Of a stretch of DNA of 24,883 nucleotides, positions 5,572-12,270 are shown in pieces. How positions within the stretch are numbered: position 1 is the stretch's first letter; each line of letters begins with the position of its first letter. The position numbers and the translations under genes are program-made. Origin of the DNA: a virus; the IMG/VR virus record IMGVR_UViG_3300047552_000304, positions 1 to 24,883 of that record; one strand, 5' to 3'. Under the pieces are notes generated by a model. That model searched no databases. It was not told the DNA's origin and saw only the letters and a program-made list of their open reading frames with translations.

Positions 5572-5586
5572 AACGAGGGCTTAAAA

Positions 5587-7569
5587 ATGCCTAATCCTGT
5601 CAAATTAAATGCGTATTCAGTTCTGGAAGTCAAAACTATTGACGACCAGTCTGACGTTTACGTTATTCGGGGTATTGCTTCTACACCAACTCCCGACCGT
5701 GACCGTGACACAGTTAATCCAATGGGTGCTAAATTTAAAACACCCATGCCTTTATTGTGGCAACACTCACACTCAAAACCAATTGGTCGTGTAACTTTTG
5801 CTAAGCCTACTAAATCGGGCATTCCTTACATTGCGGAGATTCCAAAAGTTAAGGAAGCAGGCGTTTTAAAAGACCGAATTGATGAAGCAGTTCAATCTGT
5901 AAAATATAATCTCGTAACAGGCGTATCAATTGGATTTTCTCCGGTTGAAGGCAAAGTTCGTTATAATGACGAACGCAAAGGTTATGATTTTGATGAATGG
6001 GAGTGGCTTGAATTAAGTTTAGTTACTATTCCGGCAAATGCAGAAGCTACCATCGCAAGTATTAAATCATTAAGTAAAGAAGCTGATTCAGCCTCGTCTG
6101 GCAAAGAAGAAACTTTGGACCTTAGTGGTTATTTAGCAAAGCCTAGCGTTATAGGCAAATCCACCGTAGTTACATTAAAAAAGGAGTCGAAAATGAAAAA
6201 AACAACTGAAGAGTTGATTACCGACTTTAAGGCCAAACGCGAAGAACTTGCTAAACAAGTACAAGCAATGGTTGATAAGTCTACTGAATCAGGTGCATCT
6301 TTTGATGAAACCGAAAGCGAAGAATATGATTCAATGATTGGTGAAATTAAATCAATCGACACACACATTGCTCGTTTGGAACAAGTTAAAAGCTTGAAAT
6401 TGGAATCAGCAACACCTGTTAACGCAGATGATGTTGATACAACTCAAAAAGGTGCAAACGTAAGTCGTTCTGTTATCCAAGTGCATTCAAACTTGCCTAA
6501 AGGTACTGCATTTACACGTTTTGCAATGTGTATGGCTCAAGCTAAAGGCTCACGTTTTGAAGCTTTGGAGTTAGCAAAACGTTATGACCAAACTACACCA
6601 CAAGTTGGTCGTTTCTTGAAGGCCGCTACTCAAGCAGGCACAACTACTGATGCTGATTGGGCAAGTAAATTAGTTGATTACACAACAATGGTTGACGAGT
6701 TTATTGAATTGCTACGTCCAATGACAATCTTGGGTAAATTTGGCGCTAATGGTGTTCCAAATCTTCGCAATATTCCATTTAACGTGCGTATGCCATTACA
6801 ATCTGGTGGCGGTACATACAAATGGGTAGGTGAGGGTTCTCCAAAACCTGTAGGTGAAATGGTTATCGGTGAAGTATTGCTCCGCTGGGCAAAAGCTTCA
6901 GGTATCATTGTTATCAGTGATGAACTTGCTCGTCAATCAAGTCCTGCGGCTGAACAAATTGTTCGTCGTGAATTGTTATCAGGTATGTCAGCATTCTCAG
7001 ATAGCCAATTTATCGACCCAACAATTGCTGAAGTATCAAACGTATCACCTGCTTCAATCCTTAACGGGGTACTTGCAATCAACCCAAGTGGTAACGATGC
7101 AGACGCACTTCGCGCTGACATTGCTCGTTTGATGGATAAATTCTGGGCGGCTAATTTGACACCAACAAGTGGCGTTTGGATTATGTCTAACCGTCAGGCA
7201 ACTCGTATTAGCTTGATGCGTAACGGCTTAGGTCAAAAAGAGTATCCTGATATGACACCATTGGGCGGTACTTTGGAAGGCTTCCCTGTAATCGCTTCTG
7301 AGCATGTTCCTGATGCTTCAGGTGGCGGTATTATCGCCTTTGTGAATGCGGATGATGTATTCTACTCAGACGACGGTCCTGTAACAATTGATGTATCACG
7401 TGAAGCTTCATTGCAAATGAACGATGCTCCATCAACACCTGATGCCTCAACTGTTATGTTAAGCTTGTGGCAACACAACTTAATTGGTCTTCGTGCAGAA
7501 CGCTACATGAACTGGAAAAAACGTCGCTCTGCGGCCGCCCAGTGGATTGCTGGCGCAAACTACTCTTAA
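5587..7569 (+). CDS. Fused HK97-type prohead protease and major capsid protein
   Basis: One 660-residue frame carries both proteins that HK97 encodes separately. Residues 1-160 are a serine protease of the prohead protease type: DRDRDTVNP near 37-45, His60 in LLWQHSHSKPIGR, Ser114 in GVSIGFSP and Glu142 in LELSLVTIPAN. Residues about 203-275 are a highly charged coiled coil matching the scaffolding delta region. About 300-660 is the HK97-fold capsid (GGGTYKWVGEGSPKPVGE, then ISDELARQS, then FPVIASEHVP, ending near RAERYMNWKK). The protease would remove the scaffold after assembly and also separate the two halves. A strong internal start at 6193 can make capsid alone. The promoter candidate at 5526 and a downstream hairpin suit high expression. 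Confidence 0.93.
   Translation: MPNPVKLNAYSVLEVKTIDDQSDVYVIRGIASTPTPDRDRDTVNPMGAKFKTPMPLLWQHSHSKPIGRVTFAKPTKSGIPYIAEIPKVKEAGVLKDRIDEAVQSVKYNLVTGVSIGFSPVEGKVRYNDERKGYDFDEWEWLELSLVTIPANAEATIASIKSLSKEADSASSGKEETLDLSGYLAKPSVIGKSTVVTLKKESKMKKTTEELITDFKAKREELAKQVQAMVDKSTESGASFDETESEEYDSMIGEIKSIDTHIARLEQVKSLKLESATPVNADDVDTTQKGANVSRSVIQVHSNLPKGTAFTRFAMCMAQAKGSRFEALELAKRYDQTTPQVGRFLKAATQAGTTTDADWASKLVDYTTMVDEFIELLRPMTILGKFGANGVPNLRNIPFNVRMPLQSGGGTYKWVGEGSPKPVGEMVIGEVLLRWAKASGIIVISDELARQSSPAAEQIVRRELLSGMSAFSDSQFIDPTIAEVSNVSPASILNGVLAINPSGNDADALRADIARLMDKFWAANLTPTSGVWIMSNRQATRISLMRNGLGQKEYPDMTPLGGTLEGFPVIASEHVPDASGGGIIAFVNADDVFYSDDGPVTIDVSREASLQMNDAPSTPDASTVMLSLWQHNLIGLRAERYMNWKKRRSAAAQWIAGANYS
6181..6195 (+). 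promoter_or_regulatory. Internal ribosome-binding site and start for capsid alone
   Basis: Inside the protease-capsid frame, AAGGAG (6181-6186) is followed six bases later by an in-frame ATG (6193-6195) opening MKKTTEELITDF. This is a stronger Shine-Dalgarno than the one for the full frame. It sits exactly at the boundary between the protease and the coiled-coil scaffold domain. Confidence 0.75.
6193..7569 (+). CDS. Major capsid protein with scaffold domain, from internal start
   Basis: Translation from the internal ATG would give a 458-residue product: an N-terminal coiled-coil scaffold (about 70 residues, alternating charged and hydrophobic) followed by a complete HK97-fold capsid domain. 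HK97-like virions need hundreds of capsid subunits and far fewer proteases, so a separate capsid product from the strong internal site would solve the ratio problem that a pure fusion creates. Inference rests on the strength of the site and its position at the domain boundary; a protein product has not been shown. Compare the lambda C/Nu3 nested arrangement, where an internal start also makes the more abundant product. Confidence 0.7.
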   Translation: MKKTTEELITDFKAKREELAKQVQAMVDKSTESGASFDETESEEYDSMIGEIKSIDTHIARLEQVKSLKLESATPVNADDVDTTQKGANVSRSVIQVHSNLPKGTAFTRFAMCMAQAKGSRFEALELAKRYDQTTPQVGRFLKAATQAGTTTDADWASKLVDYTTMVDEFIELLRPMTILGKFGANGVPNLRNIPFNVRMPLQSGGGTYKWVGEGSPKPVGEMVIGEVLLRWAKASGIIVISDELARQSSPAAEQIVRRELLSGMSAFSDSQFIDPTIAEVSNVSPASILNGVLAINPSGNDADALRADIARLMDKFWAANLTPTSGVWIMSNRQATRISLMRNGLGQKEYPDMTPLGGTLEGFPVIASEHVPDASGGGIIAFVNADDVFYSDDGPVTIDVSREASLQMNDAPSTPDASTVMLSLWQHNLIGLRAERYMNWKKRRSAAAQWIAGANYS

Positions 7570-7992: not shown

Positions 7993-9375
7993 ATGAAATT
8001 AATCCCAAGTTTTTTCGGTAAAGGGAAAGCGTTAGTAGAAAAAGCAGTAACAAATCCTTTACAGATACAAGACATATATGGTTATGTCCGTGAAATCTTT
8101 ACTGGTTCATGGCAACGTAATATTTCCAAGACCAAAGATACCCAATTAAGGTATTCTGCGGTCTTTTCTTGTATCAGCCTTATCGGTTCTGATATTGCAA
8201 AACTTTCTTTGATTGTTCTTACTCAATCAACTAAAGGTAATTGGACTTTGTCTAGAAACCTCCCTGCGTTGATGAAACGTCCAAACAAATATCAAACTTG
8301 GCAAAAGTTTGTAGAAGCTTGGATTCATTCTTTATTAACTGCTGGCAATGCTTACATTTATAAAATAATGGATAATGGTAGGCTTGTTGAGCTTCATGTT
8401 CTTAATCCACATAATTGCACTCCGGCTGTTACAGACGAGGGCGAGATTTATTATGCTTTACAGCGTAATGATTTGGCTAGGCAACTAGAATCAAATTATG
8501 TTCCTGCTAGTACAATCATTCACGATAGAATAAATTGTTTTTATCATCCTTTAGTGGGCTTATCACCTATCTTTGCTTGTGGTACTGCGGCTGACCAAGG
8601 TTTGTCTATTCAAGCAAACTCAACTGCTTTCTTTGATAACATGAGTAGACCTAGTGGTATTTTGTCAGCACCCGGTACAATTAAAAAAGATACAGCCGAA
8701 CGTTTAAAAGTAGCATTTGAAGAAAATTATTCACAAAACAATATTGGTAGAATTGCAGTATTGGGCGATGGTTTAGTGTATCATCAACTTGCTCTTAGCG
8801 CGGCTGATTCACAATTAATGGAACAATTAAAATGGACAGCTGAAACTGTTTGTTCATGTTTCCATGTTCCTATGTTTAAGATTAATGTAGGCAATCTACC
8901 TGCAAATGCTAACGCTGAAATGCTTAATCAGATTTATTATAGCGATTGCTTGCAATCATTAATAACATCTGTTGAAACAAACATAAATGAGTTAGGCCTT
9001 TTGCCCGTCAACCAAACTTTTAAATTTGATATCCGTGATTTAGTGCGTATGGATACATATCAAAAATATGAGTCTTTAGGCAAAGGTGTTAAGGATGGCT
9101 GGCTTAAACCAGATGAAGCTCGTGCTGAGGTTTATTTGGAATCAGTGCCAGGCGGTGATACACCCTATATGCAACAGCAAAATTATTCATTAAGAGCTTT
9201 AGCTTTACGGGATGAAACTAATCCGTTGTCAGTACAAAATACAAATCCACCCGCGGAGCCTACTACTCCTCAAGAGCCAAGTGCTCCTGTTCGGAATGAG
9301 TTAGCTCCAGAAGTGTTGTTTGTTAAAGAGTTAATGGAATTAGTGGAAACAGAAATTCAATTAGTTAGCGGATAA
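7993..9375 (+). CDS. Portal protein (HK97-like)
   Basis: Forms the dodecameric ring at one capsid vertex through which DNA enters and leaves. The 460-residue protein matches the HK97 portal family: SAVFSCISLIGSDIAKL near residue 55, GNAYIYKIMDNGRLVELHVL near 115-137, GLSPIFACGTAADQG then DNMSRPSGIL near 190-220, and the stem/clip part with QLKWTAETVCSCFHVP near 275-292. The C-terminal 60 residues are Pro/Thr-rich and then helical. It lies after the capsid gene rather than before the protease, a reversed order relative to HK97. Confidence 0.94.
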   Translation: MKLIPSFFGKGKALVEKAVTNPLQIQDIYGYVREIFTGSWQRNISKTKDTQLRYSAVFSCISLIGSDIAKLSLIVLTQSTKGNWTLSRNLPALMKRPNKYQTWQKFVEAWIHSLLTAGNAYIYKIMDNGRLVELHVLNPHNCTPAVTDEGEIYYALQRNDLARQLESNYVPASTIIHDRINCFYHPLVGLSPIFACGTAADQGLSIQANSTAFFDNMSRPSGILSAPGTIKKDTAERLKVAFEENYSQNNIGRIAVLGDGLVYHQLALSAADSQLMEQLKWTAETVCSCFHVPMFKINVGNLPANANAEMLNQIYYSDCLQSLITSVETNINELGLLPVNQTFKFDIRDLVRMDTYQKYESLGKGVKDGWLKPDEARAEVYLESVPGGDTPYMQQQNYSLRALALRDETNPLSVQNTNPPAEPTTPQEPSAPVRNELAPEVLFVKELMELVETEIQLVSG

Positions 9376-9390
9376 GCTTACGGGGAAATT

Positions 9391-10737
9391 ATGGACGTTA
9401 AATCTTTATTTGAGTCATTAAAAAAACTCATTGATGTAAAAATAGACACTTATTCAAAAAGTGTATCCCAAAGCTTGTCTGCTTTTGAAGAACGTGTTGG
9501 TTCTTTAGAAAAAGGCTTTGATAACATCACACTACAAAAAGGTGAAAAAGGCGATAAAGGGGATAAAGGTGAGGATGGTAAGTCCATAGAAATTGCAGAT
9601 GTAATGCCTTCAATAAAATCACTAATCGTTGCCGAGATTAATGATTTGCCTGTTCCAAAAGATGGAGTTGACGGTAAAGATGGTCGTGATGGTATTGACG
9701 GTAAAAATGCTGAAATTGATTATCCTGCACTAACACAAAGCCTTGTTGACGAATTAAAAGAGAGCAAGGGTTTTATTAGCTCTGTAACAAATCTTGTTCC
9801 CGTTGTAAATGGAGTTGACGGCAAAGATGGTAAAGACGTTGATATTGAATATGTAGACCAAAAATTACATTCTTTATTTACAGCACATGAAACTTCCTCA
9901 TTTGATTTAATTAAGTCTTTAGTTGAGTCACAAGTTAAAGAAATCCCTATTCCGAAAGACGGCAAGGATGGTTTAAATGGAAAAGATGGTGTTGATGGTA
10001 AAAATGCTTATGTTGATTATACCGCTATTGGTCAGACAATTGCGGAACAGATTAAAAACATTAAATTACCTGAAGCGAAAGAAATAAACATTGATGAAAT
10101 TGTAAATATAGTTCTTGAAAAAATGCCGTTTCCGAAAGACGGTAAAGACGGCAAAGATGGTTCCGACGGCAAAGCAGGCGAAAAAGGTAAAGACGGGGTT
10201 GACGGAAAAGATGCGTTAGAATTACATATATTAGAAAGTGTAGACTTGGACAAATCATATCCTCGTTCCACCTATGCAACAATTAAAGGTGGTTTATTCA
10301 AAGCATTTAGAGCAACTGACCCATTACAAGAGTTAGATGATTTTGAACGTAAAGGCTGGACTTGTATTGTTAAAGGTATTGACTCAATCACTGTTGACTT
10401 TAAAGACGATGAAAATAAACTGTACTTAAACATCGAAAATAGTTTAGGCACAGTTGTACAAAAAGAAGTAAAACTGCCTATCCCAAAATATAAAAACATT
10501 TGGGATAAAGATGCGACTTATGCAAAAGACCACATAGTTACTTCCAATGGTAGTATGTGGATAAGCAATACGGATAACAATACAGACCGACCTGGTTTAA
10601 GCGAAGCTTGGACTATGTGCGTTAAAAAGGGACGCGATGGTAAAGATGGTGCAAAAGGTAAAGACGGTTTAAACGGTAAAGACGGCAAAGACGGTCAAGA
10701 TTTAACCCAAATTAGTGAAAACGGAGCGAAATACTAA
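9391..10737 (+). CDS. Collagen-like repeat protein with carbohydrate-binding-like module
   Basis: A 448-residue protein with an N-terminal helical segment (1-48, likely trimeric coiled coil) and six blocks of Gly-X-Y triplets at about 51-62, 92-105, 141-149, 191-205, 251-273 and 414-436, mostly GKD, GVD and GEK. A unit of about 37 residues, starting [LI]P[VI]PKDG and ending in DY-x-A then a short helix, occurs at 86-122 and again at 185-222. Residues about 277-365 form a folded beta-rich domain, and 368-412 (YKNIWDKDATYAKDHIV, then W390 and W407) resemble the small CBM5/12-like chitin-binding fold. Located between portal and connector genes, it is likely a virion fibre or decoration protein binding host or environmental glycans; a tail role is also possible. 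Confidence 0.8.
   Translation: MDVKSLFESLKKLIDVKIDTYSKSVSQSLSAFEERVGSLEKGFDNITLQKGEKGDKGDKGEDGKSIEIADVMPSIKSLIVAEINDLPVPKDGVDGKDGRDGIDGKNAEIDYPALTQSLVDELKESKGFISSVTNLVPVVNGVDGKDGKDVDIEYVDQKLHSLFTAHETSSFDLIKSLVESQVKEIPIPKDGKDGLNGKDGVDGKNAYVDYTAIGQTIAEQIKNIKLPEAKEINIDEIVNIVLEKMPFPKDGKDGKDGSDGKAGEKGKDGVDGKDALELHILESVDLDKSYPRSTYATIKGGLFKAFRATDPLQELDDFERKGWTCIVKGIDSITVDFKDDENKLYLNIENSLGTVVQKEVKLPIPKYKNIWDKDATYAKDHIVTSNGSMWISNTDNNTDRPGLSEAWTMCVKKGRDGKDGAKGKDGLNGKDGKDGQDLTQISENGAKY
9541..10700 (+). repeat. Dispersed Gly-X-Y coding repeats
   Basis: Short units of the form GAyGGyAAAGAyGG recur in clusters at about 9541-9576, 9660-9707, 9810-9837, 9955-10006, 10135-10211 and 10634-10700 inside the collagen-like gene. 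They are in phase with the frame, so length variation by slippage would change triplet number without breaking the protein. Confidence 0.8.
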
Positions 10738-11342: not shown

Positions 11343-11680
11343 TGCGCCAAGGTGAATTAAGACAACGTATATCATTTCAACAAAAGATTGAAATAACGGA
11401 CAGTAATGGCTTTGTAAGTTCATCGTTTGAGGATTATCTTAATGCAAAAGAGTTTTGGGCTTCTGTTATGTATCCAAAAGGACGGGAAACAGTTGAAGAA
11501 CATTCTGTAAGAAATAGAGTTGATATAAAAGTAAAGATGCGTTATAACCCTAACATTGTGCCAACAATGAAGTTAGTTTACAAAAACGTAGAATATAATA
11601 TAGAAACTGTTTTACCTGATTCAAAAACAGGTAATTACTATATGATGATAAATGCTTACACAGGAGTTAACGAAGGATAA
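11342..11680 (+). CDS. Head closure / head-tail joining protein (HK97 gp7 or SPP1 gp16-like)
   Basis: A 112-residue protein with the typical opening GELRQRISFQQ, then EFWASVMYPKGRE, then VKMRYNPNIVPTMKLVYKN and a final strand pair. This is the small beta-barrel joining family (PF05521 type) that plugs the neck after packaging. It starts with a TAATG overlap and ends the same way. Length and gene order both fit. Confidence 0.88.
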   Translation: MRQGELRQRISFQQKIEITDSNGFVSSSFEDYLNAKEFWASVMYPKGRETVEEHSVRNRVDIKVKMRYNPNIVPTMKLVYKNVEYNIETVLPDSKTGNYYMMINAYTGVNEG

Positions 11681-12270
11681 TGCGCGATGATTTATTACTT
11701 AATCGATTTACTAATCAGACGATTGTGTGTGTTGCTTCGGGACCAAGCTTAACAAAAGAACAAATAGAATATGTAAATCTAAAGTCCAAAGTAACTTTTG
11801 TTTCAAATTCGTCTGCTTTTGATTTTCCAAATGCAACTGTTCTTTTTTCTTATGACCATAAATGGTATAACTACTATAATGACAAATTAAAACAGTTTTT
11901 TAAAGGTGCTAAATTTTGCAAAGACAAAATCACAGAAACTTCTGGATTTGCATTTAGCCTAGTTGACCAAGAATGGTTTAAAGCGTATGGTAATACAGGA
12001 GCAACGTTATTATCCTTAGCTTTACATGCAAATCCGAGTAAGGTTATATTAGTAGGTTATGATTTAAAGCAAACAGATAAAAGCCATTATCACGGAGACC
12101 ACCCTGAGCCTTTGGGTAATTGTAACAGAATAGAAATGTGGAAAGATGATTTTAAGGAACTATATAATGATTACAAAGCTCAGATTGATAAGATTGAAAT
12201 TTATAATTGTTCTTTGGATAGCAACCTTGATTTATTTCCAAGACAAGATTTAAAAAAGGTATTGTGGTGA
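11680..12270 (+). CDS. Rossmann-like protein (DUF115 / GT42-like) in the neck gene cluster
   Basis: This 196-residue protein is not a typical neck component. It shows TIVCVASGPSL (residues 14-24), a nucleotide-binding-like first strand and turn, then strands with VTFVSNSS and VLFSYDH, NTGATLLSLAL (105-115), and the strand KVILVGYDL (121-129) followed by HYHGDHP (136-142). This order resembles the DUF115/MptE-like and CMP-sialyltransferase (GT42) group, which bind sugar or pterin nucleotides. Similar proteins occur among the neck genes of some phages under uninformative names. I infer an enzyme fold, perhaps acting on a sugar of virion or host surface, but substrate and activity are unknown. 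It is coupled on both sides (TAATG at the start, GTGA at the end). Confidence 0.65.
   Translation: MRDDLLLNRFTNQTIVCVASGPSLTKEQIEYVNLKSKVTFVSNSSAFDFPNATVLFSYDHKWYNYYNDKLKQFFKGAKFCKDKITETSGFAFSLVDQEWFKAYGNTGATLLSLALHANPSKVILVGYDLKQTDKSHYHGDHPEPLGNCNRIEMWKDDFKELYNDYKAQIDKIEIYNCSLDSNLDLFPRQDLKKVLW

Follow-up and report, generated by a model that had tools for sequence, protein, structure and literature searches.

A standing question is how phages place the correct number of protease molecules inside a closed head. The HK97 prohead requires far fewer protease than capsid molecules. In the window, which is the whole stretch of 24,883 nucleotides analyzed here (a 24.9-kb IMG/VR virus record), the protease and the major capsid protein are encoded in a single frame. 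The analysis indicates that this is very probably a two-product gene, in which initiation at position 6193 gives most of the capsid protein and the protease would enter the prohead on a full-length product made in small amounts.

The frame at 5587 to 7569 on the plus strand runs for 660 codons without a stop. The S78/HK97-type protease domain occupies residues 1–150 (5587 to 6036), and is followed by a linker of residues 151–202 (6037 to 6192), which is predicted to be disordered and varies in length and sequence among relatives. The internal capsid cistron (6193 to 7569) encodes the 458-aa major capsid protein, which contains a predicted delta (scaffold) domain, assigned by analogy with HK97 gp5, at 6205 to 6408 and an HK97-fold capsid domain at 6685 to 7407. 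In the Pfam search, Peptidase_S78 (PF04586) matched residues 54–161 with 43.6 bits against a gathering score of 21, and Phage_capsid (PF05065) matched residues 367–607 with 58.5 bits against a cut-off of 24.2. In NCBIfam, the capsid part passed TIGR01554 (83.1 bits, cut-off 27.5), and the match to the profile of HK97-family major capsid proteins begins at residue 215, which is residue 13 of the internal product; for the protease, TIGR01543 gave 41.5, under its cut-off of 59. The PHROG search covered nearly the entire protein, where positions 12–626 of the 626 in the phrog_617 profile matched residues 9–659 with an E value of 3e-143. The catalytic residues His60 (5764 to 5766), Ser114 (5926 to 5928), and Glu142 (6010 to 6012) showed no variation across 77 aligned fused proteins. 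As the original prediction had proposed from the same three residues, the frame is a predicted S78/HK97-type protease joined to a complete HK97-type capsid protein.

The structure was predicted using AlphaFold2 from 77 sequences, with a mean pLDDT of 84.7. In the model, the protease domain extends to residue 150, and residues 151–203 are disordered, with pLDDT values below 50 at 151–159 and 161–203. The disorder stops at residue 203, and two delta-like helices (207–235 and 241–274) come next, so that the predicted delta domain lies directly after Met203, which is the arrangement of an HK97-type major capsid protein. A second low-confidence stretch at residues 282–296 precedes the HK97 fold and is, by analogy with HK97, a plausible candidate for the maturation cleavage site. 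In a Foldseek search, the best solved structures were the capsids of Bxb1, R4C, Muddy, and HK97, with E values reaching 1.5e-14. A sequence search of the PDB returned distant capsid proteins and nothing else.

Residue 203, where the capsid delta domain begins, is encoded by an in-frame ATG at 6193 to 6195, and the Shine-Dalgarno (SD) sequence AAGGAG lies at 6181 to 6186, 6 nt ahead of it. The site had been placed at the boundary between the two domains in the original prediction, and the coordinates, Met203, and the start of the delta domain agree with this placement. The full-length start is preceded by GAGGG at 5575 to 5579. The calculated SD pairing energy is −8.2 kcal mol−1 for the internal site and −6.4 kcal mol−1 for the upstream site. 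A simplified thermodynamic model of ribosome binding, written for this analysis and including SD pairing, spacing, local unfolding, and the start codon, gave −4.8 for the internal start and +0.7 for the upstream start; by the usual conversion, this gap corresponds to a roughly tenfold difference, with wide uncertainty. The internal start is the best of all in-frame ATGs inside the ORF. In the simplified model, it ranks third among the 27 gene starts of the window, and just 5 of 558 ATGs on the same strand reach its score. Among the structural genes of the window, it is second to the major tail protein (13246). The strong statistical case for the internal start is nevertheless based on the relatives and not on the single window sequence, for which synonymous recoding yields an equally strong SD with a codon-usage weight of 0.037.

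Searches by protein and by alignment gave 124 fused loci and 28 further loci with alignable separate genes; reduction at 80% identity left 82 and 23, respectively. A homologous start was present in all 124 fused loci, as ATG in 112 and GTG in 12, no more than four codons from the homologous point. An SD of −6 or better was found at 53% of these sites, compared to 2.4% of matched in-frame control windows; the SD was weak in 13 of the 124. As a null model, the six codons of the SD region were recoded synonymously, and the observed SD was above the expectation in 70 of the 82 non-redundant fused lineages (Wilcoxon p = 6e-11). The same tendency was obtained in the 77 lineages with a single candidate, a subset that guards against choosing the best of several starts (68 of 77, p = 8e-11). 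Control Met codons in the same frames showed the opposite trend, where the SD exceeded the recoded expectation at just 106 of 328. In addition, Met is replaced only by Val, and GTG is the codon used in all eight non-redundant lineages with this replacement, for which the chance by codon usage is about 5e-5. The SD excess over recoding and the exclusive use of GTG for Val indicate that the DNA, and not the protein alone, is selected as a start site.

One part of the original prediction did not carry over from the window to the family. The internal SD is stronger than the upstream SD in the window, as had been noticed; among the 82 lineages, the internal SD is the stronger one in 48 but the weaker one in 32, and the relation was rejected as a family rule.

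The separate-gene relatives have the same start, since the capsid gene begins at the Met203 position in all 28 of them. The junctions take several forms. In the Moraxella phages Mcat5 and Mcat9 and in Acinetobacter prophages, the protease stop lies inside the ATGA of the capsid start; in Stenotrophomonas phage SOVA965, as in many alphaproteobacterial prophages, the two genes are separated by a spacer that includes an SD of its own; and in one locus (L098) a TAA stands immediately 5' of the capsid ATG. In four split alphaproteobacterial relatives (L054, L060, L074, and L051), the stem-loop-like sequence GCCCTTGGACAAGGC or a close variant occurs between the protease stop and the capsid start. 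On a tree built on both domains with the linker left out, the number of switches between the fused and split states is at least 9 (the starred branches) to 12, counts that parsimony gives as lower bounds, and the start persists throughout. Together, the presence of the start in every fused member, the SD excess, the GTG-only Val, and the identical start in split relatives strongly support the predicted role of the internal site as the working start of the capsid protein, as had been originally proposed.

These results leave the role of the long product to be considered. One reading is that the fusion has no consequence: the phage would need just the internal capsid start and an active protease, and the long product would be tolerated where stop codons happen to be absent. 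This would accord with the fact that about one quarter to one third of the relatives are not fused. The history of the linker argues against this. Among the fused rows, parsimony gives at least 64 changes in linker length with the frame still open, a lower bound derived from length states estimated from profile ends, compared to at most 10 changes in frame class when all rows are counted. The comparison is to be read with the caution that the number of length changes is estimated by parsimony and that the search ranking favors fused members; genome contigs alone gave 40 fused and 25 split loci. Two of every three random indels would break the frame, and yet at least 64 length changes keep it; the long product itself is therefore probably selected, and a fusion without consequence is unlikely. 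The frame retained through the linker changes and the invariant catalytic residues thus give indirect support to the prediction that the phage requires the full-length product too.

The long product may instead be the only one. In this case, all capsid protein would be made as the 660-aa fusion and freed by autocatalytic cleavage, as proposed for the fused protein of PAJU2, which was suggested to cleave itself (Uchiyama 2009, cited in PMC8306868). This explanation agrees with the retention of the catalytic residues in every fused member and with certain PHROG 3270 fusions that lack a good boundary start. However, it leaves unexplained why an ATG or GTG is invariant amid a variable linker, why the SD exceeds what the amino acids need and Val is encoded only by GTG, and why split relatives have an identical start; it would also require one protease per capsid subunit. 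Since the conserved start is left unexplained, polyprotein processing alone is insufficient, and we consider it quite improbable that the capsid protein is made in this way only. As regards the long product, self-cleavage and the production of two proteins are compatible. That the internal start is a relic inherited from separate genes and now out of use is very improbable, even though split relatives exist and the fusion is easily gained or lost, because the start and its SD are retained in highly diverged fused lineages, 37–55% identical to the window, in which the surrounding linker is not conserved.

In the two-product reading, which is preferred here, the gene would consist of two overlapping cistrons in one register. 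Initiation at 6193 would give the bulk product, an ordinary HK97-type capsid protein of 458 aa that includes a delta domain, and initiation at 5587 would give a 660-aa protein in smaller quantity, with the protease attached through a flexible linker to the N-terminus of a capsid subunit. We propose that, through this tether, the protease would co-assemble with the shell and come to lie in the prohead lumen. During head maturation, the protease would cut off the delta domains, including its own, and this self-cut would free the protease and leave an ordinary subunit in the shell. A low dose of protease would fit the small number of protease molecules required in each HK97 prohead. If this is true, co-assembly through a fused subunit, with the dose set by two ribosome sites, would be a simple answer to the loading problem and would displace the polyprotein reading, and a large annotated family would lack its true capsid start in the databases.

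The fused gene lies in a standard siphophage gene order, in which the small and large terminase genes precede it and a 113-aa ORF, the portal, a second portal-linked protein, the adaptor, and the head closure gene follow, and then the genes of tail completion, the tail terminator, the major tail protein, the tape measure, and tail proteins. The portal gene (7993 to 9375) is followed by a gene at 9391 to 10737 that matches the C-terminal half of the 859-aa "portal" family phrog_2271 and whose product contains collagen-like repeats; this is another pair of neighbors that is split here and fused in some phages. Pfam and PHROG matches identify 2203 to 2652 as a pyrimidine dimer DNA glycosylase of the T4 DenV type (PF03013). 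Between the head closure and tail completion genes, the best PHROG for 11680 to 12270 is labeled as an alpha-2,3-sialyltransferase, which is odd for this position. In the simplified model, the highest-ranked ribosome site anywhere in the window belongs to an ORF without an assigned function at 969 to 1646.

The fusion of the two proteins is already known, as had been stated in the original prediction, and the present gene belongs to such a family, PHROG 617, which includes the "capsid polyprotein" (gp03) of Pseudomonas phage PAJU2 and members in Salmonella phage FSL SP-016 and Escherichia phage JLK-2012; relatives of the JLK-2012 gene were found in 1245 of 5426 complete E. coli genomes. The window protein resembles the PAJU2 type in homology over 99% of its length and in the order of terminase, fusion, small gene, and portal, but the identity to the PAJU2 protein is 44%. 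The NCBIfam model NF045541, a prohead protease/major capsid protein fusion, gave only 36.4 bits against a cut-off of 525 and is a different fusion model from the present gene. The accessible text of the PAJU2 description does not mention an internal start, and no published evidence for internal initiation in such protease-capsid fusions was found in the searchable literature, which does not include the original PAJU2 paper. The new element is that the internal start has been tested by comparison across the fusion family; the searchable literature appears to contain no earlier description of this conserved capsid start, and the two-product reading differs from the published view of a capsid that is merely cut from a long protein.

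Fused protease-capsid genes have also been reported in Arthrobacter phages (PMC5513430). Those of Arthrobacter clusters AM/AU (Circum gp12) and AN (Maggie gp7), Lactococcus phage Q54, Nocturne116, and c2 belong to other sequence families than PHROG 617, namely PHROG 3270 and 2263. In each, the best internal start coincides with the boundary between the two domains: Met165 in Circum gp12, Met160 in Maggie gp7, Met145 in Nocturne116, Met144 in Q54, and Met131 in c2. Because the linker does not align in the Circum family, the boundary could not be aligned by columns, and a position-free test was used, in which the boundary Met falls within one of the six search patterns, a small bias. A boundary start with an SD of −6 or better was found in 34 of 55 non-redundant members of the Circum-type set (PHROG 3270), and several members have none. 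Hence, the start rule holds firmly in PHROG 617 but is a tendency in the other families, and the idea of an internal start universal to all fusion families was dropped. In four PHROG 3270-type loci (L204, L205, L220, and L183), a strong SD and ATG occur further in, directly before a conserved NVF motif and near the expected N-terminus of the mature capsid protein. That HK97-type protease-capsid fusions in general are two-product genes and not polyproteins, in which the capsid protein would come from an internal start and a fused minority, built into each prohead as a shell subunit, would meter a small, fixed dose of protease that later frees itself, has about an even chance of being correct.

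Compared to the HK97 proteins gp4 and gp5, the present gene shares the protease class, the capsid fold, and a delta domain at the N-terminus of the capsid protein, but in HK97 the protease and capsid protein are encoded by separate genes. In the C/Nu3 gene of lambda, the abundant product arises from an in-frame internal start, whereas the protease is part of the long form. A conserved internal start with an SD at the domain boundary, the mark of a dual-product gene of this type, was also found here. Lambda differs from the present gene in that its internal product is the scaffold rather than the capsid protein and in that its protease belongs to another family.
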